Assembly: GCF_024662215.1 (NCBI RefSeq)
Contig: NZ_CP096115.1
Coordinates: 1,860,001-1,924,000, forward strand
From: Methanoplanus endosymbiosus
Lineage (GTDB): Archaea > Halobacteriota > Methanomicrobia > Methanomicrobiales > Methanomicrobiaceae
DNA length: 64,000 nt
Direction: 5' to 3'
Shown here: in pieces, positions 1,875-64,000 of the stretch
Numbering within the stretch: the first letter of the stretch is position 1
Layout: every line of letters starts with the position of its first letter
Position numbers and translations under genes: made by a program
The notes under the pieces: model-generated
Seen by the model: only the letters and a program-made list of their open reading frames with translations
What the model was told of the DNA's origin: nothing
The model's database searches: none

Positions 1875-3647
1875 ATGTCTGAAAGATATTTGCTTGGAAA
1901 TGAGGCTATAGGTCGTGCATGCCTTGAGGCAAACCTCGATTTCGCAAGCGGTTATCCGGGAACCCCGTCTTCTGAGATAGTGGATTTTTTACGATACCAA
2001 AAGGAGAGGGAATTTTACGTGGAATGGTCGGTCAACGAGAAGGTTGCGTTTGAAAACGCCCTTGGTGCAGCATGGACTGGTGTCAGATCACTTGTCACAA
2101 TGAAGCATGTCGGCCTCAATGTCGCTGCTGATCCTCTCATGACGAGTGGATATACGGGGATTAAGGGTGGTATGGTCATAGTATCCTCAGATGATCCATA
2201 TGCACACAGTTCTCAGAACGAGCAGGATTCAAGGAATTATGCAGCGTTTGCAAAAGTTCCATGTCTTGATCCGGGAGATATTCAGGAGGCATACTCAATG
2301 ATGGTCTCAGCTTATGACCTCTCAGAGGAGTCCGGTCTGCCTGTAATCTTCAGGCCGACAACACGCATCTGCCATTCCAAGAGCAATGTTTCTGTGGGTG
2401 AGTCAGGGCAGGAGCACAGAACTGCTGCCTTTGAGAAAGATCCAAAGCAGTTTGTTGTAATTCCGGTGCACACCAGGGTTCTTCATAAAAAACTGAATGA
2501 GAAGCAGAAAGGTCTTGCAGAGAGACTCGTTGAGATGGGCTTTAACAGGGCAGAGGTGAGGGGAAAGACTGCCGTTGTCGCAGCCGGAATTTCGGCATCA
2601 TATGTTGAGGAGATTATTCCTGATGATGTATCGTTTGCAAAGATCGGTGCATATCCGATAGATGAGGAATGGCTTGGAGAGTTTGCCGGGAAGCATGAGA
2701 AGATCCTTGTTGTTGAGGAGTTATCGCCTGTTGTGGAAAATGTCCTGCGGCAGGTATCCTGCGGCGCTGAAGTCTTTGGCAAAAAGAACGGTTGTGTCCC
2801 GTATGAGGGCGAACTTGATCCTGCATCGGTTGCGCTCGCCTTTGAGAAGGCAGGGTTTGAGCATAAATATGAATATACAGTTCCTGAGCCTGTAAGAGAT
2901 CTGCCGCCAAGGCCGCCTATTCTCTGCGCCGGATGTGGACATCGGGCAGCATTTTATGCAATGAAGAAGGTATTTGGCAGCAAAGCCATCTACCCCAGTG
3001 ACATCGGCTGTTATACACTTGGCATTCAGCTTGGAACGGTTGATACAACGATCTGTATGGGTGCATCCATAACAGTCGGAAGCGGTATTGCATCAGCAGG
3101 TGAGGAGAATGATGTCGTCTGCTCAATTGGTGATTCAACCTTTCTTCATACCGGAATTAACGGCCTGATAAATGCTGCATACAACGGTGCCAATATTACG
3201 GTTGTGATCCTTGACAACAGGATTACTGCGATGACAGGTCATCAGCCCAATCCGAATACCGGAATGACTGCAAAAGGTGTTTTAAGCCCTTCTATCTCCC
3301 TTGAGACCCTCTGCCGGTCATGTGGTGTATCCTTTGTGGAGACGATTGATCCATATGACCTCACAGGTACTCTGAAGATGTTTGAGAAGGCAAAAGCGAA
3401 GAAGGGTGTAAAGGTCATCATAGCAAGGCAGCCATGCGTCATTGATGCAAAGAGGTCAGGTATTAAGAGAAAGCCTGTCACTGTTGATGCGGAGATCTGC
3501 ACCGGATGCGGACTTTGTGTTAAATTCGGCTGTCCGGCAATTGAATTTACGGATAAGAAGGCATCAGTCAATTCACTCTGTATGGGGTGCGGTGTCTGTG
3601 CTGATATCTGTCCTGCCGGGGCAATAAGACCGGAGGGTAAGAGATGA
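1875..3647 (+). CDS. iorA: Indolepyruvate ferredoxin oxidoreductase, alpha subunit
   Basis: 590 aa, the usual length for IorA. The N-terminus carries the pyrimidine-binding TPP fold (SGYPGTPSSEI). The middle and C-terminal half has the pyrophosphate-binding part (ILCAGCGHRAAF, SIGDSTFLHTG, LDNRITAMTGHQ). The last 60 residues contain two [4Fe-4S] ferredoxin motifs (CTGCGLCVKFGC and CMGCGVCADIC). The enzyme oxidatively decarboxylates aryl-pyruvates from Trp, Phe and Tyr transamination to aryl-CoA and reduces ferredoxin. The ATG at 1875 begins MSERYLLGNEAIG, typical of the family. Its stop overlaps the start of the beta-subunit gene by 4 bp, showing an operon. The upstream ADP-forming synthetase could turn the CoA product into acid plus ATP. 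Confidence 0.95.
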   Translation: MSERYLLGNEAIGRACLEANLDFASGYPGTPSSEIVDFLRYQKEREFYVEWSVNEKVAFENALGAAWTGVRSLVTMKHVGLNVAADPLMTSGYTGIKGGMVIVSSDDPYAHSSQNEQDSRNYAAFAKVPCLDPGDIQEAYSMMVSAYDLSEESGLPVIFRPTTRICHSKSNVSVGESGQEHRTAAFEKDPKQFVVIPVHTRVLHKKLNEKQKGLAERLVEMGFNRAEVRGKTAVVAAGISASYVEEIIPDDVSFAKIGAYPIDEEWLGEFAGKHEKILVVEELSPVVENVLRQVSCGAEVFGKKNGCVPYEGELDPASVALAFEKAGFEHKYEYTVPEPVRDLPPRPPILCAGCGHRAAFYAMKKVFGSKAIYPSDIGCYTLGIQLGTVDTTICMGASITVGSGIASAGEENDVVCSIGDSTFLHTGINGLINAAYNGANITVVILDNRITAMTGHQPNPNTGMTAKGVLSPSISLETLCRSCGVSFVETIDPYDLTGTLKMFEKAKAKKGVKVIIARQPCVIDAKRSGIKRKPVTVDAEICTGCGLCVKFGCPAIEFTDKKASVNSLCMGCGVCADICPAGAIRPEGKR

Positions 3648-4234
3648 GCGAAAGTTTTGATCTGTTGATTGTCGGAGTCGGAGGTCAGGGTACTGTTCTG
3701 GCCTCAAATATAATCGGTGAGTCGTGCCTTATTGAAAAGCGATCTGTCAGGTCTGCCGAGACTCACGGAATGGCACAGAGGGGCGGTTCGGTTGAGACCC
3801 ATATACGAATTGACGGGAAATACGGTTCGCTTATCTCTCCCGGCACTGCTGACCTGATAATCTCATTTGATCTCCTTGAGGCACTCAGGTACAGTCATTT
3901 CCTAAAGAAAGGCGGAAAGATAATCTCATCTTCCGGAATAATAGTTCCTGTATCTGCCTTCCAGCAGAATCTTGAGATTCCGACACCTGAAGAGTTAATT
4001 GAGAGAATGTCCGGATTTGACCTCACTGTCATTGACGCGGAGAAGATTGCAGGGGAGGCCGGAAGCCTGCTCTCTCAGAATGTGGTGATGCTTGGTGCCT
4101 CTGCATCTGCGCTTCCGCTAAAGGTTGAGTCTATGACTGAAGCTGTACAAAGCCTCGTTCCTCCAAAAACAGTGGAGATCAACACCAGGGCCTTTGAGTA
4201 TGGCTTTAAAGCAGCCCAAAATAATATTTCATAA
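3644..4234 (+). CDS. iorB: Indolepyruvate ferredoxin oxidoreductase, beta subunit
   Basis: 196 aa, the gamma-type domain of 2-oxoacid:ferredoxin oxidoreductases. Family marks include LLIVGVGGQGTVLASNIIG near the N-terminus and SAETHGMAQRGGSVETHIR around residue 40. It partners IorA in the cytoplasm to form the TPP/Fe-S enzyme that oxidises indolepyruvate and related aryl-pyruvates. Its ATG overlaps the 3' end of iorA (ATGA arrangement), so translational coupling and a fixed stoichiometry are likely. A T-rich stretch just after the stop (about 4253-4262) may be its transcription terminator. No unusual residues were noticed. Confidence 0.94.
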   Translation: MSESFDLLIVGVGGQGTVLASNIIGESCLIEKRSVRSAETHGMAQRGGSVETHIRIDGKYGSLISPGTADLIISFDLLEALRYSHFLKKGGKIISSSGIIVPVSAFQQNLEIPTPEELIERMSGFDLTVIDAEKIAGEAGSLLSQNVVMLGASASALPLKVESMTEAVQSLVPPKTVEINTRAFEYGFKAAQNNIS

Positions 4235-4348
4235 AATCTCATTTTTAGAAATATTTTTTTTAAATCTGATGGATTTACAGGAAAATTCTTGTTTCTCTTT
4301 TCTATCCGAATAATATAAGGTAATCAATGTCCAAATTTTAAAAGTTAT

Positions 4349-4552
4349 ATGAGTGAAATTCAGGTTTATGCTGGGGGAATACTTGCGTCCACGGGAATAA
4401 TCCTTTTGGGAATAATCCTTATTATGGAGATAATCGGCTACGAAACAGGAATGTTATATGCTTCAATGCCGGTTTTTGCTCTTCTTGTTGTCCTGGGTGT
4501 TTTGCTGATGATTCTTGGTTCAAAAGAGTCTGAATGTTCCAGTGAAAACTGA
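4349..4552 (+). CDS. Small two-helix membrane protein, unknown
   Basis: 67 aa. Two hydrophobic segments are visible, roughly residues 8-28 (GILASTGIILLGIILIMEII) and 35-57 (LYASMPVFALLVVLGVLLMIL), followed by a short polar tail with one Cys. The start is ATG. The stop is separated by only 3 bp from the nitrilase ATG, so the two are probably co-transcribed. I do not recognise a family. The regular hydrophobic pattern and tight spacing to the next gene support it being real, but no function can be assigned. Confidence 0.6.
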   Translation: MSEIQVYAGGILASTGIILLGIILIMEIIGYETGMLYASMPVFALLVVLGVLLMILGSKESECSSEN

Positions 4553-4555
4553 TAT

Positions 4556-5347
4556 ATGAAACTGAATCTCTGCTTTTCTCAGTTTAGATCTGTAATGGAA
4601 GAGCCGGAGAAGAATCTTCTCCGCGCTGAGGGAATGATTGAAGAGGCCTCATGCCGGAATTCTGATATCATTATCTTCCCTGAGCAGGCTTTTACCGGGT
4701 GGGACCCCCTGTCCCGCAGAAATGTGGAAGATGAAGACGGCCTTACCGTATCATCACTCCGGGAATATGCGGAGGAGTATTCTGTCGGAATATTGGGATC
4801 ATACAGAAGAAAAACGGATACAATTCCGGAGAACACCGCTCTTCTGATTGGGGATGACGGGGATATTGTAGCTTCCTATTCAAAGATTCATCTCTTCACT
4901 CCCGGAAGAGAGGGTGAGGCGTTCAGGGCTGGCAGCAATCCTGCTGTTGCTGATTATAAGGGTGTTAAGACAGGCATTGCAATATGTTATGATCTCAGGT
5001 TTCCGGAATTATTTGCATATTACAGAAAATGTGGTGCTGAGATTGTTTTCGTTCCTGCTGCATGGCCATGCAGGAGAATGAATTACTGGAGGTTATTTTT
5101 ACATGCCCGTGCGGCAGATAACCGGTTTTTTGTTGCCGGAATTAACACAACCGGAGAAAATCATGTTGACACCTACTGTGGGGGTTCTGTGCTGATTGAT
5201 CCCTGTGGAGAAACAGTTGCCAATGCGGGCGGGGGAGAGGGTCTCACATTTACATCGGCAGATACTTCTGCTGTTAGTGGAGCAGAAAATATTTTGCCGG
5301 TATTTCCTGATCGCAAAGAAGAGTTATACATAAAATGGCTCAGATAG
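4556..5347 (+). CDS. Nitrilase-superfamily carbon-nitrogen hydrolase (omega-amidase-like)
   Basis: 263 aa, normal for branch members such as omega-amidase/Nit2. The catalytic triad of the superfamily is visible: Glu in FPEQAFTGW (about residue 42), Lys in YSKIHLF and Cys in ICYDLRFPELF. These enzymes hydrolyse small amides or 2-oxo-acid amides in the cytoplasm to acid and ammonia. The starting ATG lies 3 bp after the small membrane protein, and the gene is followed 15 bp later by the DUF457-like membrane protein, so a short plus-strand operon is likely. Specificity within the superfamily cannot be decided by motifs alone. Proximity to iorAB would fit amino-acid catabolism, which is inference. 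Confidence 0.87.
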   Translation: MKLNLCFSQFRSVMEEPEKNLLRAEGMIEEASCRNSDIIIFPEQAFTGWDPLSRRNVEDEDGLTVSSLREYAEEYSVGILGSYRRKTDTIPENTALLIGDDGDIVASYSKIHLFTPGREGEAFRAGSNPAVADYKGVKTGIAICYDLRFPELFAYYRKCGAEIVFVPAAWPCRRMNYWRLFLHARAADNRFFVAGINTTGENHVDTYCGGSVLIDPCGETVANAGGGEGLTFTSADTSAVSGAENILPVFPDRKEELYIKWLR

Positions 5348-5362
5348 TATTCTGCTGATCTT

Positions 5363-6094
5363 ATGAACGGAGAAGAGCATGTAATTTTAAGCCTGTTGTC
5401 GGCAGGTGTTATCCTCACACCGCTGCTTGGCAGTATAGGGCCGATAATCCCGCTGGTCTGTCTGATCGGGGTATTTATAGGTTCACTTGCCCCTGATGCA
5501 GATACTCCTGCTTCTTCGATTATGCACGGGTTTTCGGGCAGACAGGGCCGTTTAAGGTCTGTGAAGCGGCATACTATTATATTTCTTCCGTTATTTGGCT
5601 ATATTCTGAGGTATCTTGTATTTTATCCGGCCTCGGCAGTTGTCTGGCTTTTCACTCTTGGCAGGGAAAAACCGCGCCACCGTGGTGTTATGCATTCACT
5701 GCTGGGTGCTGTTATTGCTGCACTGGTTATAGGGCTGATACTCTATGGTACAGTTGTTATTCTTGCAGGGTTTGATGCTAAGATCTGGATCTATGCCTTC
5801 CTCTCCGGATTTTTATTCGGATACCTGATGCATCTCATTGAGGACTCATGTACCAGGCACGGGGTCCGCTGGCTTTATCCGCTCAGTAAGGCAAAGCTCT
5901 CCGGAAATCTGGCTGCTGAAAGTTCCGGAATCAGGCTGTCGTTTGTGGTTGTTGCAGGGGCATTTCTCTTTGTGCTCATCTCATCCCCTGTACTGCATAT
6001 CCCTGTTCCTGAGGGCGGCGGGCTGGCATATGGATTCATAATCTTATCCATTGCATGGGTGGCTGTAATGGCAGTTGCAGGTGTGCATTCCTGA
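5363..6094 (+). CDS. DUF457/YdjM-type membrane-bound metal-dependent hydrolase
   Basis: 243 aa with several membrane segments (about residues 10-40, 85-105, 115-160, 190-235). Family features are the acidic motif GSLAPDADTPASS after the first helices, the basic/His motif RHRGVMHS and MHLIEDSCTRHGVRWLYP. This family is annotated as putative metal-dependent hydrolases of the cytoplasmic membrane, with real substrates unknown. The gene follows the nitrilase closely, suggesting co-transcription. A second, more diverged member of the same broad family is encoded at 32830-33726. The activity is inferred from the conserved Asp/His pattern only. Confidence 0.78.
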   Translation: MNGEEHVILSLLSAGVILTPLLGSIGPIIPLVCLIGVFIGSLAPDADTPASSIMHGFSGRQGRLRSVKRHTIIFLPLFGYILRYLVFYPASAVVWLFTLGREKPRHRGVMHSLLGAVIAALVIGLILYGTVVILAGFDAKIWIYAFLSGFLFGYLMHLIEDSCTRHGVRWLYPLSKAKLSGNLAAESSGIRLSFVVVAGAFLFVLISSPVLHIPVPEGGGLAYGFIILSIAWVAVMAVAGVHS

Positions 6095-12886: not shown

Positions 12887-14074
12887 TTATTGTGCCGTTC
12901 TGAGTTCTTCCGGTGTCAGGGGTGACATATTTCTGAGTTTCTGAACAATGCCGGGCACAGCATTAAGCACATAGTCAACATCCTCATCACTGTTCATCTC
13001 ACCAAGGGTCAGGCGAAGGGAACCATGTGCTATTTCAATGGGGACATTGCAGGCTTTCAGAACATGAGAGGCATCAAGTGAATCCGAAGTGCAGGCACTT
13101 CCTGTGGATGCGCAGATGCCCTTTCTGTTCAGCATGAGAAGTATGGACTCGCCCTCGATGTATTCAAAGACCACGTTTACATTATTCGGAAGCCTCTTCT
13201 CCGGATGGCCGTTTAAATGTGTCTTTGGAATCTTTAATAGCCCTTCTGTAAGTCTGTCCCTTAGTGCAGATATTCTTGCAGATTCTTCCGGCATGTTATT
13301 GACCGCTATTTCGATTGCCAGACCCAGTCCGGCAATTCCCGGTACGTTCTCTGTTCCCGCACGTCTTCTTCTCTCCTGTGCACCACCATGCATCAGGGGA
13401 TCGACTTTCACACCTTTCCGGATATAGAGTGCACCTGTTCCCTTTGGGCCGCTGAATTTATGCCCGGATAGTGAGAGCATGTCGATGTTCATCGCCTCCA
13501 CATCTATGGGCACATGCCCTATTGCCTGCACTGCATCGGTATGAAAGATTACTCCCTTCTCCCTTGCTATTTTCCCAAGTTCTGCAACCGGCTCAATTGT
13601 TCCGATCTCATTGTTGGCAAACATAACAGATGCCAGAATTGTTTTGTCTGTTATGGCCTCCTCAAAGTCCTTTGGATCAACAAGTCCGTATTCATCCACA
13701 GGCAGGTATGTTATCTCAAAACCATGTTTTTCAAGCCATTCAACCGTATGCAGAACTGCGTGGTGCTCAATGGGTGTTGTTATTATGTGGTTGCCGGATT
13801 TTTGGTTCGCAAAAGCAGCACCTTTTATTGCCCAGTTGTCAGACTCGGTTCCGCCGGATGTGAAATATATCTCCTTTGGATCTGCGTTTATTGCCGATGC
13901 AACCTGTTTACGTGCCTTTCCGACCGCTTCTCTGGAATCTCCGGCAATACTGTACAGTGAAGAGGGATTGCCGAACTTCTCTGTCATATATTCTGACATA
14001 ATGCTGACAACCTCCGTCCTTGTGGGTGTTGTTGCTGCATTGTCCATATAAATTAAAGGTTTATTGTCATCCAT
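12887..14074 (-). CDS. iscS: Cysteine desulfurase (IscS/NifS)
   Basis: 395 aa. The PLP lysine is K206 in SLSGHKFSGPKG, and the catalytic cysteine loop is CASTGSACTS with C328 in the standard position. H104 in PIEHHAV stacks on PLP. It removes sulfur from cysteine, giving alanine and a persulfide that is passed to IscU, the next gene on the minus strand. The ATG at 14074 starts MDDNKPLIYMDNAATTP, typical of the family. It could also serve other sulfur-requiring pathways, including the PAPS-reductase-like protein encoded at 56667, although that gene lies far away and the link is speculation. Confidence 0.95.
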   Translation of the reverse strand: MDDNKPLIYMDNAATTPTRTEVVSIMSEYMTEKFGNPSSLYSIAGDSREAVGKARKQVASAINADPKEIYFTSGGTESDNWAIKGAAFANQKSGNHIITTPIEHHAVLHTVEWLEKHGFEITYLPVDEYGLVDPKDFEEAITDKTILASVMFANNEIGTIEPVAELGKIAREKGVIFHTDAVQAIGHVPIDVEAMNIDMLSLSGHKFSGPKGTGALYIRKGVKVDPLMHGGAQERRRRAGTENVPGIAGLGLAIEIAVNNMPEESARISALRDRLTEGLLKIPKTHLNGHPEKRLPNNVNVVFEYIEGESILLMLNRKGICASTGSACTSDSLDASHVLKACNVPIEIAHGSLRLTLGEMNSDEDVDYVLNAVPGIVQKLRNMSPLTPEELRTAQ

Positions 14075-53018: not shown

Positions 53019-53146
53019 GGGATGGTTTTCTCATGGGAAAGAGTGAAATGCCGGAGTTCATAAGCAATTGCCTGCGGAGAATTAGGTTGTGTCCTAAGAT
53101 AGCATACCTTATTGTGTGATGAATGACATATATTTATGTGATACAT

Positions 53147-54112
53147 ATGGCTCGCCCACGTGGAAAAATAGATGTTGTCTGCCAAAATCCTGAGTGTCAA
53201 TATTATCTCAAAGAGGAAGGAAAGGATATAATCAAACGAGGAAAAGATGCCAGAACTTCTCATCAACGATATTACTGCAAACACTGTACAAAATTTTTCA
53301 TGGAAACTAAAGGTACTCCCCTATTCTACAAACACCTATCTGAAAAAGAAATTATAACCATTTGCAAGCATTTTGTGGAGAAAAATGGAATAAGAAGCAT
53401 CGAAAGATTAACGGGTCACCACCGCGATACAATTGGACGGTTGCTTACTGATGTAGCTGAGCATGCAGCAAAGATGAATGATATACTCATTGAAGAACTT
53501 GATCTAAGCCCTATAGAATGCGATGAGTTCTGGAGTTTCATTAAAAAAAAACAAAAAAATGTTGTCAAAGAAAGCTCAGAACCAGATTTCGTTGGCGATG
53601 CATGGACATACACAGCAATAAAACGAAAATCCTATTTTATAATTTCTTTTGCAGTTGGAAAACATAAACAAGCAACCTGTAATGTCATGATGAATGACCT
53701 TTATGAAAGAATTAAGCTCCCTGATCCACAATCAAAACTTGAAATTTATACTGATGGGAATGACCAATATCTGACAAGTTTAAATGCTCTTTACGCTAAT
53801 CCCTGCGTTAACTATGGTCAGTTAATAAAAGTCCGGAAAAAGGGGAGAGTTGAAGAAAAATACAAAATTGCAGTTATTGGTGAGCCGCCGTTATCCAAAA
53901 TTGAAACTACTGATGTTGAAAATTCTAATGGAATCCTTCGTGAAAGAGTTGGCCGTTTGGTGAGAAAAGCGAAGACATTCTCAAAGTTAAAACCAAAATT
54001 AGAATCAGCATTAGATATTTTTCAATTTTATTGGAATTTTATGAATGAATTCAAGAAAAAATCTACACCAGGAATGATTGAAGGTATAATAGGACTTACG
54101 CGAAACGATTAA
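53147..54112 (+). CDS. IS1-like DDE transposase
   Basis: 321 aa from the ATG at 53147 (MARPRGKIDVVCQNPEC); an upstream ATG at 53123 is possible. An N-terminal zinc ribbon (CQNPEC, then YYCKHC) and a helix-turn-helix region (GIRSIERLTGHHRDTIGRLL) precede the catalytic core. The core acids are D in ECDEFWSF, D in YTDGNDQY and E in VENSNGILRERV, as in IS1-type enzymes of archaea. The C-terminus (TPGMIEGIIGLTRND) enters an inverted repeat at 54089. It marks the left edge of an A+T-rich region that continues with the BREX-like operon. The left end of the element could not be defined, so functionality is uncertain. Confidence 0.82.
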   Translation: MARPRGKIDVVCQNPECQYYLKEEGKDIIKRGKDARTSHQRYYCKHCTKFFMETKGTPLFYKHLSEKEIITICKHFVEKNGIRSIERLTGHHRDTIGRLLTDVAEHAAKMNDILIEELDLSPIECDEFWSFIKKKQKNVVKESSEPDFVGDAWTYTAIKRKSYFIISFAVGKHKQATCNVMMNDLYERIKLPDPQSKLEIYTDGNDQYLTSLNALYANPCVNYGQLIKVRKKGRVEEKYKIAVIGEPPLSKIETTDVENSNGILRERVGRLVRKAKTFSKLKPKLESALDIFQFYWNFMNEFKKKSTPGMIEGIIGLTRND

Positions 54113-54563: not shown

Positions 54564-56666
54564 GTGTTTGGCAAGTTAAAGAGAATTTATTTCTGGAATC
54601 GTTTGTCGGAGACTCAGGTAAATATACATGTTGATAAATCTGTAATACGCTACAATGGTTTGGTGCTGCCAGTTAGGATGCGTCCTTTTTTTGATGCAGA
54701 ATTTTTAAATCCAGGTGGTATATTGGAAATTAGTCTGATTCATGAGAATAGTGGGATTAAATACAGTTCTTGCATCCGGAGGGCAAATAATTTAGATGAA
54801 AATCAAATATCACCTACACGTATATATTGGGATGAAGCACTTAGTGATCTAATTGAATATTTAATTTTGGATGGGAATGATGTCTTAATATTAAAATTTA
54901 TAAAATTTACATTGGTTAAAAATAAGTATTATATTAATATTGGACGCAGTGATTTGCAATCTGGAAATGATCAGTTTAAGCGTCTAATTTCAAATCATGA
55001 AGATCCTGTGCTGCCTAAAATTATTAATAATTCTCAGGAAAACATTGTTGAACATCCACTCGCAAAACCAGATACGGTGGCAGGGTCTCATTTCAAGCAG
55101 ACGATTTATGAGGCGTGTGAACCTGAAATTAATGGAAATCGAATTAAGATGGAGTATGAAAAAATCCTTTGTCAAAATAAATTATCTCATAAATATAAAT
55201 TATATGCAAAAGTTCTCACAAAACAATTTCCACGAGGAATAAATCTCAATAATCAGCTTCAGGTTGTCAGGTGCATGGTTGCATTTAAAAAAGCTTTTTT
55301 TGAAAATTATAACGAAGAATGGACCGGGGATTACGATCAATTTATCAAGGATATTATAGAGATAACTGTTGCATGTGATGATACGACAATGTTGTCAATA
55401 ACATCATTAAATATTTCTGATTCCTTACTAAATGAGATAATTGTTCATGTTAATAATCTTTTTGAGTCAGGGGAAGCGATTGTTTCTTCTGATGAACTTT
55501 ATATCAAGTTTAAGCAAAGGTTACTCCAGACAAATATTTACAATTCCACCACGCTAGAGAATGTTGTTAGATACTATATAGGGGGTAAATACAATTTCAC
55601 TGATGGTTATATTTGTTCCCAAGAATTGTCCAGTATAGATGGTTATATTTTTGATAAAGTGTTAGCGGCACTTCTGAAATTTTCCGGTCCAATGTCTTAT
55701 GAGGAACTTATACGTACACTCCCCCATTTTCCTGATGAGAAAATTAGGGACTGCCTTAAAAGTTCCTCTAAAGTTATCAGAGGGAAGAAAGGATATTATA
55801 CTCATATCGATTGTTTTGATATTACGTTGCAAGATAAGGAGTTGCTCCTTACAACTATTAATGATAATATGCAAGATAATGTAATTACCACTGCGGGTCT
55901 TTTTGATGCATATCTGGCAATTAACCCTGATTTCTTTGATCGAAATTTCATAACTGATATCGTGTCGCTTAGTGACATTTTCAAATATTGTTATCCATCA
56001 AAATATACTCATAAACGTGGGCAGATAATTTTTGGAGACGGATTAATTCTCAGTTCAACCGAGAAGGTGGTACGTCATCTTATGTCAATGAAATCTTTCA
56101 CGTATCATGATATGGATGAATACAAAAATTCAAACCATTATAACGTTGATTGTCGAGGGGTTCTTAAACCAATCTTAAAAAAATATTTTCGCCTTGATGA
56201 AAATCGGTTTATTTCAATCGATCAAATAATTATTTCAGAGAACGTATTAAATGGTATTGAAAATTTGCTCATGGATGAATTAAAAATGGGGTATGTCTGT
56301 TCTGCAAATATCAAAAATTATCTATCATATCCATATATTGGATCTAATCCATGTACCCCATATCTTCTTGAGAGTATTATTAGGATTTACGGCAGCAAAT
56401 TCAGATGTCCATTGAAACTCATTGAGTATTATACTGGCTGCAAAAAACCCCGAGGAATTATTGTTATATTGGACTCAGATTTTACCACTTATGAGGATGT
56501 CCTGATAGATGTTCTAAAAAAGCAAAACAGCCGGGAACCATTTGAAAATCAAATGAAAGCAATAGAATATCTTAAAGAGAGAAATTATATGCAAACTGCT
56601 TTACGAGATGGATTCTCAAGCATCTACTCAAAAGCGATTGCTAAATACGATTTTTTTGGTATATAA
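54564..56666 (+). CDS. Unknown 700-aa protein, first gene of the BREX-like operon
   Basis: 700 aa, GTG start at 54564. The frame continues upstream without a stop to 54525, and a GGTGG site at 54529-54533 precedes an in-frame ATT, so the true start is uncertain. The N-terminal 130 residues are strand-rich (PVRMRPFFDAEFLNPGGILE, then SPTRIYWDEALSDLIEYLIL). The rest seems to be helical, with repeated winged-helix-like units (LLKFSGPMSYEELIRTLPHF and similar). I recognise no family and no catalytic motif. The stop abuts the next ATG without a gap, so it is part of the operon. It could be a target-recognition, regulatory or effector component. Strongly A+T-rich codons, as in the rest of the operon. 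Confidence 0.8.
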   Translation: MFGKLKRIYFWNRLSETQVNIHVDKSVIRYNGLVLPVRMRPFFDAEFLNPGGILEISLIHENSGIKYSSCIRRANNLDENQISPTRIYWDEALSDLIEYLILDGNDVLILKFIKFTLVKNKYYINIGRSDLQSGNDQFKRLISNHEDPVLPKIINNSQENIVEHPLAKPDTVAGSHFKQTIYEACEPEINGNRIKMEYEKILCQNKLSHKYKLYAKVLTKQFPRGINLNNQLQVVRCMVAFKKAFFENYNEEWTGDYDQFIKDIIEITVACDDTTMLSITSLNISDSLLNEIIVHVNNLFESGEAIVSSDELYIKFKQRLLQTNIYNSTTLENVVRYYIGGKYNFTDGYICSQELSSIDGYIFDKVLAALLKFSGPMSYEELIRTLPHFPDEKIRDCLKSSSKVIRGKKGYYTHIDCFDITLQDKELLLTTINDNMQDNVITTAGLFDAYLAINPDFFDRNFITDIVSLSDIFKYCYPSKYTHKRGQIIFGDGLILSSTEKVVRHLMSMKSFTYHDMDEYKNSNHYNVDCRGVLKPILKKYFRLDENRFISIDQIIISENVLNGIENLLMDELKMGYVCSANIKNYLSYPYIGSNPCTPYLLESIIRIYGSKFRCPLKLIEYYTGCKKPRGIIVILDSDFTTYEDVLIDVLKKQNSREPFENQMKAIEYLKERNYMQTALRDGFSSIYSKAIAKYDFFGI

Positions 56667-59039
56667 ATGTACAAATATGAATGGGATCCAGAAACAGGTG
56701 GATATCTACTTACAACAACTTCTGAAAGTATTGTTGGAAAAGAACTCCGGCCGGTATATTCTTCTGAATTAGATTTACTAGGATTTAACAAATATTGGAC
56801 TTATCCAAGAGATGATACAAAACCTTTGCTCTGGGCAGAAAATAACTTATATTATTATTTAGGAAGAATTGTTGGTAAAACGAGTGGTGGAAGTCTCTAT
56901 AACCGACCTACACTCATAATTATTGAGGATGGATTGGAATTAACCTTTGTAGATGTAGCACTAATGGTGAATAAAAATCGTGTCATAATGGATGCTCTTG
57001 TTCATGATACACTTCTCACGATCTATGCTACATACCAACAGTTCAAAAATAACATTGATATTTTTTACGTTGCATTCAGTGGAGGAAAAGATTCAATAGT
57101 TGCACTTGATTTAGTACATCGTACTCTTCCAAAAAATGAATTTCTGGTTTTGTTTGGAGATACAGACATGGAACTTCCAGATACATACTTGTTTATGAAT
57201 GTTATATCAAAATTTTACAACGATATTTCCTTCCATGTGGCCCGTGCTGAAATAACCTCTGTCGAATCTTGGAATATATTTGGTCCCCCAGCACGTGGTA
57301 TTCGCTGGTGTTGCAGTGTGCATAAGACAGCTCCACAAATTAGGTATTTGCGTAATTTATTTAAAAAATCAAACGTAAGAGGGATGGCTTTTACGGGAAT
57401 CCGGGCAGAAGAAAGTAATGCCCGTTTCTTATATGACATGGTGAGTGTCAGTAAAAAGCACCCTGGACAGGCAAGTTGCCATCCAATTCTTCAATGGAAT
57501 TCTGCGGAGCTTTTCCTATATATCTATGGTAATAATCTCCCCCTCAACGAAGCATATAAAAAAGGGAATTCGCGCGTAGGTTGTCTATTATGTCCGATGT
57601 CTGGAGGGAAACATGAGTTCATCAAGATGTCTTGTTATCCAGATGTGATGACAAAATACATAGACATAATTCGGAATACCAGTTCAAAAACCTTTGATCG
57701 ATTATCAGATATGGATCACTTCATAGAAGATGGTGGATGGAAAATACGTTGTTCTGGACGTGAAATAAAAACTGGTAAAAACCTTATAGATGTGATAAGT
57801 AACAAAAAAGAGCTAAGAATCATCTCCAAATGTCCGGCGGATGACTGGAGTGAATGGATAAAAGCACTAGGGGAGTTCTGCCAAATAGATAACAATTGCT
57901 ATCTTGTAACATACAATAATGCGACATATCATTTTACTGTTACCAAAAATGAAAACCAGTCTTTGGAAGTGATTTTGCCACTAATTGGGGGAGGTAAAAG
58001 TGAAATTTATTTTGTTTCACTATTCAAAAATGTTTTTCGCAAAGCTGCCTATTGCAGAAGATGCGGAGTATGTGCAGCAGAATGTAAGTTTGGATGTATC
58101 ACTATGAACCCAGACTCTATGAAAATTGATGGCAATGAATGCAAACATTGTGCTCAATGTCTAAAAATTAAATACGGATGCTTAATATGTTCGTCAATAA
58201 AATTACCATTAAGCAAAGGGACTGAAAAAATGGTTGGAATGGATAGATATATGACATTTGGATTCCGGAAAGAATGGCTTGATTCATATTTCAAAGATCC
58301 TGATAAATTCTGGGATCATAATGATTTAGGAAGTAAGATGATTCCGGTATTCAAAAAATTTTTACGGGATGCAGGGATTATCTCTGGAAAAAGAGATCTT
58401 ACACTTACCAGAACAGGACAACTGCTCAGGTCTATAGGTTCAGATTCTGAGGTTACATGGGCAATTATTCTGGTTAATCTCTCATACACTCCTCAAATTG
58501 GATGGTATGTAAGAAATATTGTTCCTGGTACCAGTTATACAATGCAAGATCTCAAGGCGCTCCTTCCCGAAGATATCAAAGACACAGTGAAACGCAATAT
58601 TGTGAGTGCTTACCGTAATATTATGGTACAAACTCCGATTGGAAGCCAGATTGGACTTGGTCACCCTCAAAAATCCGGTTCAAATGTAAAATATTTGGAG
58701 AGAATAAAATGGGAAAATCCGATTCCTGAAGTAATATTATATGCCTTCTACAGATATGCAGAAGAAAATATTCAGGAAGATGATAGTATTCGTGACAATG
58801 TTAACTACCGGTTTACATTAACCGAGATCTTATCCGAAGATCCAGACATTTCCGGATTGAGTCCCTCACAGATATTTGATATTGATAGAGATACATTCAG
58901 GCACATTCTTGAAGGGTTGTCTATTGAGTATTCAGAGTATATTTCAACTTCTTTTACCCATGATTTAGACAATATTGTTCTTTCTCAAAATAAAACATCA
59001 GAAGAGATTCTTGAAAATGTCATGGTGGCGATAAAATGA
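56667..59039 (+). CDS. brxP: BrxP-like PAPS-reductase/ferredoxin/DUF4007-like fusion
   Basis: 790 aa. After an N-terminal part (1-130), a PP-loop adenylyl-binding domain has AFSGGKDSIVAL (138-143 core), with cysteines at 215-216 (GIRWCCSVHK), 271 and 306/309 (VGCLLCP) that could hold an Fe-S cluster, as in DndC-type and archaeal PAPS reductases. A ferredoxin-like module follows (463-508: CRRCGVCAAECKFGC, CKHCAQCLKIKYGCLIC). The C-terminal about 250 residues resemble DUF4007 (FGFRKEWLDSYFKD, LTRTGQLLRSIG, WYVRN). Type 4 BREX carries a PAPS-reductase protein at this place. The fold suggests sulfur activation or DNA phosphorothioation, which is inferred. The gene starts directly after the 700-aa gene and overlaps brxC by 4 bp. 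Confidence 0.85.
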   Translation: MYKYEWDPETGGYLLTTTSESIVGKELRPVYSSELDLLGFNKYWTYPRDDTKPLLWAENNLYYYLGRIVGKTSGGSLYNRPTLIIIEDGLELTFVDVALMVNKNRVIMDALVHDTLLTIYATYQQFKNNIDIFYVAFSGGKDSIVALDLVHRTLPKNEFLVLFGDTDMELPDTYLFMNVISKFYNDISFHVARAEITSVESWNIFGPPARGIRWCCSVHKTAPQIRYLRNLFKKSNVRGMAFTGIRAEESNARFLYDMVSVSKKHPGQASCHPILQWNSAELFLYIYGNNLPLNEAYKKGNSRVGCLLCPMSGGKHEFIKMSCYPDVMTKYIDIIRNTSSKTFDRLSDMDHFIEDGGWKIRCSGREIKTGKNLIDVISNKKELRIISKCPADDWSEWIKALGEFCQIDNNCYLVTYNNATYHFTVTKNENQSLEVILPLIGGGKSEIYFVSLFKNVFRKAAYCRRCGVCAAECKFGCITMNPDSMKIDGNECKHCAQCLKIKYGCLICSSIKLPLSKGTEKMVGMDRYMTFGFRKEWLDSYFKDPDKFWDHNDLGSKMIPVFKKFLRDAGIISGKRDLTLTRTGQLLRSIGSDSEVTWAIILVNLSYTPQIGWYVRNIVPGTSYTMQDLKALLPEDIKDTVKRNIVSAYRNIMVQTPIGSQIGLGHPQKSGSNVKYLERIKWENPIPEVILYAFYRYAEENIQEDDSIRDNVNYRFTLTEILSEDPDISGLSPSQIFDIDRDTFRHILEGLSIEYSEYISTSFTHDLDNIVLSQNKTSEEILENVMVAIK

Positions 59040-62000
59040 TGAGTAATAATATGACTGATATTGTATATGATAATTTTTTTGAAATTGATCCAAATTATTT
59101 CCCTATGATGACAGAAGAACTCATCAAATCTGAAGATGGTAAATGGAAGGGATTCTACCCACATGAAAAATTTGTAGAGTTAATTAAACATACTGTAAAT
59201 ACGCTCAATCGTCACGAAAAACAATCTCTCTGGGTCACAGGGGCATATGGTACAGGTAAGTCTCATGCAGTTCTGACGATAAAATGTATGCTTGAAGCGA
59301 AAAGAGAGGATGTAACCGAGTATTTTGAAAAGAATGATCTCGATATGGATCTCTGCAGTCGCCTTAACAACCTAAAAGGACAAGGGCATATTCTCACCGT
59401 TTACCGGAATGGATCTGCAAGTATTGACTCAACAGCAGCTCTCACTCTTGCAATTCAGAGCAGTATTAAAAAGGCACTGGAAGAGCAGGGTATTGAAAAT
59501 AAATCAAATATTACATTAAAAGAGACAATTGTCAATAGATTAACTACAAAAAAAATTTATTCAGATTATATTGACAAATTAATGCAGGAAAAATACAACT
59601 ATCTCTTTTCACCCTATTCTAATGTTACAAGTTTTCTTGAGGCAATTCAAAACTCTGATGATGAAATATCAAATCAGCTTATCAATAAATATCTCAATAT
59701 GCTCAATATGGAGGGGATAAGTGGACATCCTATCGAACCAAATGATTTAGTTCGGTGGATAGATGAAGTTCTCAAGGCAAATAACTTAACTTCTATTTTC
59801 TTTATCTGGGATGAGTTCACTGAATTTTTCAAGATCAATCAAAATAAACTCACAGGTCTTCAGGAAATTGCGGAATCTACACAACATATGCCATTTGTTC
59901 TGATGCTGGTTACCCATATTTCCGGAAAACAATTGCCATTAGGTGATTCCAAAAAAATTTCCGATCGCTTTGCTCCTCCAATTGAGATATGTCTGCCAGA
60001 TAATACCGCGTTTAAACTCATGGGAAAAGCACTTGCAGTAAAGGATAATCAGGAGGTTTGTTCACAGTGGCAAACCCTTAGAAGTGAACTTTGGAGTAAT
60101 GTATGCAATTCGGGCAAGCTTGTTATCAGATCAACAAATAATAAAGTGACAGAAAATGATTTTAAGGAAATATTACCGATCCACCCATATGCAGCTCTGA
60201 TTCTTAAACATCTATCCGCCCGTTTCAATTCCAATCAAAGAAGTATGTTTGAGTTCATAAAAGGAGGGGATGTTAAATCAGAATCCATAAGTTTCAAATC
60301 ATTTATTCACCAAACCGGACCTTTCTCCCCTATTCCATATCTTACTTGTGACAAATTATGGGATTACTTCTACAGTAGTGACAAAGCCCGATTAGATACA
60401 GAACTTAAGGATTTATTGAACACATACAATATTCATAAAGACAACAAGGCATTTGATTCAGATACATTATTGATCTTAAAAACAACCCTACTTCTTCAGG
60501 GTCTTTCAAATCAAGCATGGAATGTCCCGATACTGAAGCCAACACTGAATAATTTGACATATGCCTTTGAAGGAACCGATCTCGCAAAAGTTCGAATAGA
60601 ACAGATCCTTGAGATTCTTATAGGAAATGGTGTTTTATCTTCGCATCCCGGCAAAAATAGTGAAATAGAATATGTCGCTCTTCGTGCTAACAGTGACACT
60701 GCGGTAATCAGTCAGTTAGTGCAGGAAATGTCAAAAAAATATACAACACTGGAACTTATTCAAAAGAACAATGATCTCGATAAGTTATTTGAATTACCCG
60801 AGGAGCTCTCTCTTCGGTATGAATCATCATATTTAACGATCACTAACATTGACGCTGCATTAAAACGTAAAGTAAATAATCCTCCAAACAAAATTCGATT
60901 GTTTTTCACATTTGCTAAAGATGATCAGGAAGCAAGCATCATTAATGAAAAAATCCAGAATTTCCTATCGGCATGTTTGGATTCTGGAATAATTATTGTA
61001 GACACGTCATTATCTTCGCTTAAATCCAAAAATTATGATGATATTATTGAATGTCTGGCAAATGTGCGTTACTGGAAAGATAAGAATATTTCAAAACAAG
61101 TTACCGCATATGATAGTCGAGTAACTGATATCATTAATCAATGGAATAAGGAACTCATAAATGGAGTATTCGTTCTCTATGATTCTTCTCATAATGGACA
61201 GAAATTCTATAGTTTTGATTTACTTACAAGGCAACTAAGGCAGATCAATGAAGAACGTTTCCCGAAAGGTATTGAACGTCTTTCCAATTCGAAGACACTG
61301 CGTACTATCCAACAATCAAAGAGAGGAGCAATTATGGCGGCATCTGGTGGTGAGAAACCATCCGGAATGTTTAATTCTCTTGTCCAGCCTCTTTCTGAGA
61401 TCTGGACTGATAATTATTATTGGGGGCATGCACCAGATCATCTCTTATCACAGATTAAAAATGAACTTAAAATTTTCATGGATAAGAGGTTTACTAAAGA
61501 TGGAAAGGTAGACATATACGATATATGGGACTTTCTGACACGTCCGCCCTATGGATTTCTCCCATGTAGTTTAAGTGCTTTTGTTCTTGGTTTCCTTCTT
61601 CGGGAATATGCAAATGACCAGTACACCTGGTCTAACGGCTCAATAGCAGAGCCAATGTCAGCTGAAAAGCTTGGAGAACTCATAGATGGTGCCATAAAAT
61701 CAATTCCTGGAAATCGTCCGTCTTCTCGATATATTGTACAAATGACTGAGGAAGAAAAAGAATTCATGAATTCTTCTGCGTTCGTATTTAATGTCCCTTC
61801 CGTCCAGTGTACTTCAATTGAAAATACCCGTAACAAGATCATTAATGCAATAAATGGACTTCGGTATCCACTTTGGGCATTAAAAAACTACATCGACTCA
61901 CAAAATACTACACAAAAAGATCTTCTCAAAAATATCATTGATGATTACTGCTCTATTTCAAGTAGTTCCCCAGATGCCAAAAAGGTAGTTAAAGCAAAAG

Positions 62001-63229
62001 TCAATTCAATTGGGAAGACGTTTCAGCAACATGCTGGATTGAGCAATGCGGTTCGGGATCTAATCACACCCCAAAACACAAGGGAAGGTATGGATCTCTA
62101 TGTTCGGGCCACATATCCGGATTTAATTACAATTGCACAATCACTTAATGATAATAATTATCTTGAAGCCATTAAAAACAGATTCAGTGCGGATAGTGCT
62201 TGGTTGTGGTGTAGCGATGATATCGATAATGCAATCATGGAAGTTGTCAGTGATTATCGGATTTTTGATTCCAGTAATCATTTCATTGGAACAAAAACAT
62301 CAATCCAAGATGTAATTAGAGAGTGGAATAATAAATTGAATGAGATCCGTATTCCTTTTGATATTATCCTGTCCTCTGAGGAACAGTTAACAAAACCACT
62401 CACCATGCTCTTTAACATGTGTAAGACAAGATCACTCTCATCTTCTGATAAGAGGGAACTAAGTGATGTGTTACAGTCATATAAAATAGAGTTGGATGAA
62501 TTTTTTTGTTCTGACACTCAAATTCGAATATTCAATGAGAATTTTTCTGATAAATTCGCCAATCTAAGTATAGACAAAATTAAGGATTTGTATTTATCTC
62601 TTCCAAGAGGGCAGATTTATCAGTCAAAATCAGAATATGATCAGCGTGTTGTGGCTAAGATTGAAGATCTTCGCTGTGTTCAGCTCTATCAGCATCTAGA
62701 AAGTGAATGGTATAGAATATCCGGAGAAGTGGATCCAAAAGTATGGTCTAACAAGTATGAACTGCCGATACTGTACCTTTTCGATGATGAACCTGGAAAA
62801 GCAAGAGACCTTTGTTCCATTCTTTTAAATAAAGGATCCAGCGATGAATCTAAAATAGAGGGAGCAACAGCGTTCCTCAAAAACTGTTCTGACTTTGCAA
62901 AAATTAAAGATATGGAATATATCCAGATGGTGTTCCAGAAAAAAATACTTGGGGATTATGAGTATGTAATTGAACCAGAGGATATTTCCGCCCTTATTTT
63001 GGAACTCAAGTCCAAAGTTGATGAAGACATCTATTCATGGGTTGACAAGAGAACTCTTGTAGATAAAGTCGTGGAGGACTATGCAAAAAAATCATATCTT
63101 AAATCAGGATTTACGAAAGCATTCTCAAAGATTGATAATATGTCTCCGGATGAGGCAAAAAAATATCTCAAAGATCTTATCAAAAACGATCTGCGGGTAG
63201 GTATTGCAATCATCAGGCGTTTGGAATGA
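59036..63229 (+). CDS. brxC: BrxC/PglY-type P-loop ATPase
   Basis: 1397 aa, in the family's size range. Walker A is GAYGTGKS at 69-76, and Walker B is FFIWDE at about 255-260, followed by a sensor-like strand (FVLMLVTHISG). A long helical remainder covers residues 300-1397. BrxC/PglY proteins are ATPases essential for BREX defence and thought to drive assembly on DNA. The ATG overlaps the brxP stop (ATGA), and the next gene follows 24 bp later. No frameshift is seen over the full length, which supports a functional locus. A DUF499-type ATPase is a close alternative label within the same family. Confidence 0.87.
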   Translation: MMSNNMTDIVYDNFFEIDPNYFPMMTEELIKSEDGKWKGFYPHEKFVELIKHTVNTLNRHEKQSLWVTGAYGTGKSHAVLTIKCMLEAKREDVTEYFEKNDLDMDLCSRLNNLKGQGHILTVYRNGSASIDSTAALTLAIQSSIKKALEEQGIENKSNITLKETIVNRLTTKKIYSDYIDKLMQEKYNYLFSPYSNVTSFLEAIQNSDDEISNQLINKYLNMLNMEGISGHPIEPNDLVRWIDEVLKANNLTSIFFIWDEFTEFFKINQNKLTGLQEIAESTQHMPFVLMLVTHISGKQLPLGDSKKISDRFAPPIEICLPDNTAFKLMGKALAVKDNQEVCSQWQTLRSELWSNVCNSGKLVIRSTNNKVTENDFKEILPIHPYAALILKHLSARFNSNQRSMFEFIKGGDVKSESISFKSFIHQTGPFSPIPYLTCDKLWDYFYSSDKARLDTELKDLLNTYNIHKDNKAFDSDTLLILKTTLLLQGLSNQAWNVPILKPTLNNLTYAFEGTDLAKVRIEQILEILIGNGVLSSHPGKNSEIEYVALRANSDTAVISQLVQEMSKKYTTLELIQKNNDLDKLFELPEELSLRYESSYLTITNIDAALKRKVNNPPNKIRLFFTFAKDDQEASIINEKIQNFLSACLDSGIIIVDTSLSSLKSKNYDDIIECLANVRYWKDKNISKQVTAYDSRVTDIINQWNKELINGVFVLYDSSHNGQKFYSFDLLTRQLRQINEERFPKGIERLSNSKTLRTIQQSKRGAIMAASGGEKPSGMFNSLVQPLSEIWTDNYYWGHAPDHLLSQIKNELKIFMDKRFTKDGKVDIYDIWDFLTRPPYGFLPCSLSAFVLGFLLREYANDQYTWSNGSIAEPMSAEKLGELIDGAIKSIPGNRPSSRYIVQMTEEEKEFMNSSAFVFNVPSVQCTSIENTRNKIINAINGLRYPLWALKNYIDSQNTTQKDLLKNIIDDYCSISSSSPDAKKVVKAKVNSIGKTFQQHAGLSNAVRDLITPQNTREGMDLYVRATYPDLITIAQSLNDNNYLEAIKNRFSADSAWLWCSDDIDNAIMEVVSDYRIFDSSNHFIGTKTSIQDVIREWNNKLNEIRIPFDIILSSEEQLTKPLTMLFNMCKTRSLSSSDKRELSDVLQSYKIELDEFFCSDTQIRIFNENFSDKFANLSIDKIKDLYLSLPRGQIYQSKSEYDQRVVAKIEDLRCVQLYQHLESEWYRISGEVDPKVWSNKYELPILYLFDDEPGKARDLCSILLNKGSSDESKIEGATAFLKNCSDFAKIKDMEYIQMVFQKKILGDYEYVIEPEDISALILELKSKVDEDIYSWVDKRTLVDKVVEDYAKKSYLKSGFTKAFSKIDNMSPDEAKKYLKDLIKNDLRVGIAIIRRLE

Positions 63230-63253: not shown

Positions 63254-64000
63254 ATGAATTATCAGACATACGAAGAACTCTTTGAAAGAATTACCCAATC
63301 GCCAGCAACAAGATCAGAAACGATCATTGTGAATGTTAATTCCCATGAGAATTACACGAATCTTGTTAATAATTTTTTAGAGAAAAAACAGGTTCAATTA
63401 AGTAATTATGTCAAAGGGGATCAATACCCTGATCTTTTACAGTGCTATGCAGAAATAGAGAAAAGCGAAAATACTACTCTTGTATATGGCTTTTCACAAC
63501 ATATGATGATGATCTCCGAGAAAGAACGTCGTGAGATCTGGTCAAATATATTAAACAACATCAAGTTATCTACGACTCCACAACATAGAGTAATTTTTTT
63601 GTTTTACCAGATGGAAGATGTTCTGGCGAAGAAAATATACGATGATTTACGGTTAAATGAACGAATATTTCTTTTAAAAGATGTTCGGTCTGATCCAACT
63701 GGAAACGTATTTTTAATTTCAAATTCTGTAGAGGTTGAATCATCAAATTCTGAAAGGATCTTCTCTGGCTATAACCAGTATTTGCAGGAAGTAGAAATAA
63801 ATCCAGCAACTAATATTACCGTTGTCACAAAATTCACACATGATCCATACTCTGAGCGGCTAATACAGGTTACGCTGATTCCATCAGCGTACAAATATCT
63901 TGTTGTCAAAAAACAGTTCCCCAAGAGTATCCCTGAGTCAGTTGGAACCGCAGATAATTGGCTAACTTTGGTAAAAGATATCAAGGGAATTGCATCTGTA
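63254..64000 (+). CDS. pglZ: Probable PglZ N-terminal part, cut by the window end
   Basis: 249 codons from the ATG at 63254 run without a stop to the last base. The sequence (MNYQTYEELFERITQSPATR, then VRSDPTGNVFLISNS and PSAYKYLVVKKQFPKSIPES) is not diagnostic by itself. Its position after brxC is where type 4 BREX encodes PglZ, a protein with an alkaline-phosphatase-like domain; that domain would lie beyond the window. The name is inferred from gene order and may prove wrong. Confidence 0.5.
   Translation, partial: MNYQTYEELFERITQSPATRSETIIVNVNSHENYTNLVNNFLEKKQVQLSNYVKGDQYPDLLQCYAEIEKSENTTLVYGFSQHMMMISEKERREIWSNILNNIKLSTTPQHRVIFLFYQMEDVLAKKIYDDLRLNERIFLLKDVRSDPTGNVFLISNSVEVESSNSERIFSGYNQYLQEVEINPATNITVVTKFTHDPYSERLIQVTLIPSAYKYLVVKKQFPKSIPESVGTADNWLTLVKDIKGIASV

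Follow-up and report, generated by a model that had tools for sequence, protein, structure and literature searches.

The brxPCZL genes of BREX type 4 are listed among the families that make phosphorothioates (PMC11931770), and both the architecture of the BREX-4 protein BrxP and its link to DNA phosphorothioation were published in 2026 (PMC12839542). As described there, BrxP (PADLOC PDLC02510) carries in one chain a PAPS-reductase domain, an alpha+beta domain called Mog1p/PsbP-like, a cysteine-rich ferredoxin-type domain and a DUF4007 domain made of a helix-turn-helix (HTH) and two winged HTHs. A cysteine desulfurase gene is found in the locus in 56% of taxa, and is not required, as stated in the same paper. 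In Ssp systems the corresponding functions are split into two separate genes, one encoding the SspD-like PP-loop reductase, the other the DUF4007 protein SspB, for which DNA nicking activity has been reported (PMC8092258). The ferredoxin-bearing form of the reductase is noted for a subset of SspD proteins in PMC12839542. DndC is a PP-loop sulfurtransferase with a [4Fe-4S] cluster held by three cysteines (PMC10853773). Three cysteines also hold the sulfur-carrying cluster, with a free iron site, of the NcsA and TtuA thiolases (PMC10067955), PP-loop proteins which act on tRNA and lack ferredoxin-type and DUF4007 modules.

The window analysed, a stretch of 64,000 nucleotides at positions 1860001-1924000 of the 3.16-Mb genome of Methanoplanus endosymbiosus (NZ_CP096115.1), hosts a tight operon on the forward strand, in the order geneA-brxP-brxC-pglZ-brxL. 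geneA (54564-56666, 700 aa) has a stop codon directly followed by the ATG of brxP (56667-59039), the second gene, which is one uninterrupted ORF of 790 aa matching the PADLOC BrxP model over the full chain (residues 1-787, E 2.3e-242). This upholds the identification made in an earlier sequence-only reading of the gene. brxC (59036-63229, 1397 aa; PADLOC BrxC E 3.3e-169) overlaps brxP by 4 bases. pglZ starts at 63254, runs to the window end at 64000 and continues in the adjoining stretch L006 (255-2591; 778 aa in full), where brxL follows (2605-4053). These two genes, extending past the window edge, have been assigned by position and by homology to the corresponding genes of loci L045-L047; in a Methanosphaera plasmid, genes in the same order are annotated as BREX-4 system phosphatase PglZ and BrxL. 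The gene set of BREX type 4, full-length brxP with brxC, pglZ and brxL and no methyltransferase, is thus all present, and on its gene content the operon is a complete BREX type 4 system in a methanogen. It differs from the BREX type 4 loci described in PMC12839542 by the lack of a desulfurase gene and the presence of geneA.

When genome contigs were searched with BrxP, the sole match was a 90% identical operon of Methanogenium sp. MK-MG, in which all five genes are present and encode proteins 78-96% identical. The dN/dS ratios in this comparison (0.17 for brxP, 0.06-0.26 for the other operon genes) point to purifying selection. The same ratios, and the integrity of the five genes in this genome, make it improbable that the operon is a decayed or silent defence island, now modifying nothing in this strain. 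A decayed state is evoked by the IS1-like transposase gene just upstream of the operon (53123-54112; 84 bits, below the 100-bit cut-off), and by insertions disrupting brxP in two related loci. In these (L047:8634-12352 and L064:6653-12007) inserted genes, a 375-aa ORF and two tandem 438-aa ORFs with the same start, split brxP, and the remaining BREX-4 operon is kept.

BrxP had been read as a three-module protein. The count is too low, as five regions can be told apart, and the combination, real as it is, had been taken as notable while being standard for BREX-4: the multi-domain architecture is already described in PMC12839542. The N-terminal domain (residues 1-103, 56667-56975) is conserved in BrxPs and in the BrxP-core proteins of phage, and mostly made of strands in the AlphaFold model (pLDDT 83). 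The PP-loop/PAPS-reductase-like domain follows (residues 104-345, 56976-57701), with the SGGKDS loop at residues 138-143 (57078-57095), invariant in BrxPs and relatives wherever the region is present. PAPS_reduct PF01507 matches residues 134-310 with E 1.5e-31, and Foldseek relates the domain to CysH-type structures (1sur, 2goy) and to the [4Fe-4S] protein TtuA (5b4f, E 3.7e-5). An alpha+beta linker domain (residues 374-440, 57786-57986; strand-helix-strands in the model) precedes a two-cluster ferredoxin-type domain (residues 458-512, 58038-58202), whose PDB profile matches are MvhB and clostridial ferredoxins. The chain ends with a DUF4007/SspB-like domain (residues 525-790, 58239-59036), modelled as a HTH followed by two winged HTHs, as in the published description.

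Profile searches of each module, proposed as a check in the sequence-only reading, gave a direct hit for the PP-loop domain. The DUF4007 and Fer4 families of Pfam both remained below cut-off with the window protein, and were reached through a relative and by profile-profile comparison. In the BrxP of genome G107 (locus L044) Fer4 is above cut-off and DUF4007 scores 27.1 bits, the Pfam cut-off being 27. In an hhalign comparison between the BrxP family and the stand-alone DUF4007/SspB proteins from two Ssp-like loci, residues 525-787 align colinearly over 240 columns (93.6%, E 2.1e-7). A stand-alone SspB/DUF4007 protein matches positions 529-771 of the BrxP model (E 2.4e-7), and the C-terminus is also matched by a 265-aa PADLOC BrxP model (E 5e-17). 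The DUF4007-like nature of the C-terminus, suspected earlier, is therefore borne out.

The two Ssp-like loci (L145:9836-17220 and L053:13947-21360) encode a ferredoxin-bearing SspD-like protein, followed by a DUF4007/SspB gene, an SspC-sized gene and an aminotransferase-V/desulfurase-like gene; no PglZ or BrxL was recognised among the genes read. Judged by sequence, they are the unfused counterpart of BrxP, which looks like an Ssp-type pair fused into one chain, though the change may have gone in either direction. When the BrxP model was run against 393 archaeal genomes, it retrieved many PRK13795-type proteins, aligned over BrxP positions ~98-510. These methanogen proteins are not part of BREX and share with BrxP the PP-loop and ferredoxin unit, differing in that the N-terminus is unlike that of BrxP and matches end before the DUF4007 part. 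The association of reductase and ferredoxin as an invention of BREX was considered and rejected, since PRK13795-type and some Ssp proteins have both.

Five cysteines of the PP-loop module (215, 216, 271, 306 and 309) are candidate ligands. Four had been deemed plausible cluster cysteines, yet only three, C215, C306 and C309, are invariant in 14 BrxPs. At residue 216, in the C215-C216 pair (57309-57314), two of the 14 proteins carry Thr or His and one further fragment carries Gly, in contrast to the C306xxC309 pair of putative cluster ligands (57582-57593). As to the ferredoxin-type cysteines seen between residues 463 and 508, the eight at 463, 466, 469, 473, 492, 495, 498 and 505 are conserved in 14/14 BrxPs, and C508 is not. 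Invariant cysteines thus amount to 11; those at 271, 323, 362, 389, 405, 411, 477 and 508 show no conservation in the same set. PRK13795-type proteins have all 11, plus C216.

True APS reductases combine a CC...CxxC pattern with the catalytic cysteine of an ECGxH motif. The four-cysteine pattern of the APS reductase-type [4Fe-4S] cluster is present in the window BrxP, its second cysteine being lost in the three variant BrxPs; the ECGxH motif of PAPS/APS reductases is absent from every BrxP compared. BrxP might be viewed as an assimilatory-type (P)APS reductase, in which the ferredoxin replaces thioredoxin and sulfite is made for metabolism, the place within BREX being secondary. The PF01507 match, the CysH-type structure, the resemblance of the cysteine pattern to APS reductases and the wide occurrence of PRK13795 proteins in methanogens fit such a role. 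The lack of the reductase motif, the fusion to a DNA-binding DUF4007 domain, the co-occurrence of brxC, pglZ and brxL in every complete locus read and the literature on brxPCZL (PMC11931770) make it very unlikely. The cysH family model scored 60 bits with BrxP, below its cut-off of 165.

We favour an open-site, sulfur-carrying [4Fe-4S] cluster held in the PP-loop domain by C215, C306 and C309, as in TtuA, NcsA and DndC, because C216 is variable, ECGxH is absent, the clusters of DndC, NcsA and TtuA have three cysteines, and TtuA is matched by Foldseek. The cluster may instead be of the four-cysteine, APS reductase-like type, since most BrxPs, and every PRK13795 and Ssp relative compared, have Cys at residue 216. 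Similarity between DndC and BrxP is weak (E 1e-4), the DndC equivalog TIGR03183 gives 17.4 bits versus a cut-off of 290.4, and BrxP lacks the DndC cysteine dyad, according to PMC12839542. DndC and the haloarchaeal systems, earlier invoked as precedent, are an indirect one, and BREX type 4 itself is closer.

No cysteine desulfurase gene resides in the BREX operon, unlike several other BREX-4 loci, which speaks against a role of BrxP in sulfur transfer. A NifS cysteine desulfurase gene (12887-14074, reverse strand; TIGR03402 608 bits, cut-off 531) is found in the same window ~40 kb upstream of the operon, and its product is a possible, and likely, housekeeping sulfur donor for BrxP. Cases in which housekeeping desulfurases stand in for dedicated ones are on record (PMC8092258, PMC12839542).

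Taken together, BrxP is probably the DNA phosphorothioation sulfurtransferase of this complete BREX type 4 system. The reading leans on the full-length PADLOC matches of BrxP and BrxC and the intact brxC-pglZ-brxL set; on the 11 invariant cysteines, the variable C216, the missing ECGxH motif and the likeness to CysH and TtuA; and on the DUF4007 homology, the presence of NifS, the dN/dS values and the listing of brxPCZL in PMC11931770. From the literature it takes the formation of phosphorothioates by BREX-4 and the roles of SspB and SspD. The role in DNA phosphorothioation, already proposed from the letters of the gene, has good support from the function published for brxPCZL (PMC11931770, PMC12839542) and from the completeness of the operon. 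In the working proposed, the SspB-like DUF4007 domain would bind target DNA in partnership with the AAA+ protein BrxC, and the PP-loop would adenylate a backbone phosphate. The cluster on C215, C306 and C309, its fourth iron open, would carry sulfide coming from a cysteine desulfurase, probably the housekeeping NifS, and the cluster-bound sulfide would attack the adenylated phosphate. The ferredoxin domain would most likely provide the electrons reducing the desulfurase persulfide to cluster-bound sulfide, and the internal electron supply imagined earlier is plausible, but tempered by the occurrence of the same ferredoxin fusion in methanogen proteins outside BREX and by the non-redox thiolation of related PP-loop [4Fe-4S] enzymes (PMC10067955).

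Alternatively, BrxP may make phosphorothioates with a ferredoxin domain that has a structural function, or serves as a platform onto which the desulfurase docks, the chemistry being non-redox as in NcsA and TtuA. The related PP-loop [4Fe-4S] thiolases have been described as non-redox (PMC10067955), and the PADLOC models of SspD and DndC align to the PP-loop part only. Weighing the other way, the eight ligands are invariant among BrxP, Ssp and PRK13795 proteins that have diverged widely, and the domain has MvhB and clostridial ferredoxins as its profile matches. We regard this alternative as possible, though rather doubtful. As an intact archaeal BREX-4 locus, the operon is a place to ask how DNA phosphorothioation obtains sulfur and electrons, and the cysteine pattern yields a precise claim open to testing, namely that a fused ferredoxin feeds an open-site [4Fe-4S] cluster. 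The interest of the locus rests mainly on this pattern and on geneA.

geneA matches no Pfam, PADLOC or NCBIfam model at its cut-off, and is missing from the BREX-4 section of PMC12839542. No convincing sequence match was found in the PDB and none in plasmids, and the viral contigs scanned added nothing new. The C-terminal core of ~460 aa (residues ~207-680) is what the gene immediately preceding brxP shares from locus to locus. Counting the window, such homologues adjoin brxP in 9 loci, the other eight being from MK-MG, genomes G073, G291 and G074, three viral contigs and one human-gut record (L007, L045, L046, L047, L063, L064, L066 and L143). A geneA profile run against 386 archaeal genomes found the gene in five, in all five directly upstream of brxP and nowhere else; brxP occurs in about nine of the archaeal genomes searched, and the association is marked (Fisher P 1.8e-9, relatedness ignored). 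Carriers fall in one BrxP clade (support 100/99), and geneA is absent from the loci outside it (L044, L048, L052 and L144). N-terminal parts vary: in L066 RNA polymerase alpha-CTD and sigma region 4 are combined, and in L063 an integrase SAM-like domain is matched weakly. AlphaFold modelled geneA poorly (pLDDT 52), with helix-helix-helix-hairpin units recurring in the secondary structure, and Foldseek retrieved unrelated proteins, several of which contain winged-helix repeats. The tandem winged-HTH character is all that was taken from the model, and geneA is predicted to encode a protein of this kind. Chances are about even that geneA belongs to BREX type 4 as an uncatalogued component confined to one clade, whose product binds DNA through tandem winged helices, carries a variable N-terminal part for sensing or targeting, and either guides the placement of sulfur by BrxP or controls the system. 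geneA may fill a gap in the choice of targets, or in the control, of BREX-4.

In a midpoint-rooted tree, with several weak forks, BrxPs and two phage proteins form one group (support 97/99), the latter nesting within the BrxP clade. Two tandem BrxP-core genes, encoding the N-terminal, PP-loop and ferredoxin domains and lacking DUF4007, reside in an IMG/VR phage contig (L067:2403-4139 and 4146-5753; also L068). The contig has no brxC or pglZ, and the two genes adjoin lysozyme-like and Dam-type methyltransferase genes; they possibly serve phage self-modification or counter-defence. A lone, very divergent 383-aa protein, made of PP-loop and ferredoxin parts, is encoded by a small plasmid of Methanobacterium congolense (L054:7902-9053).
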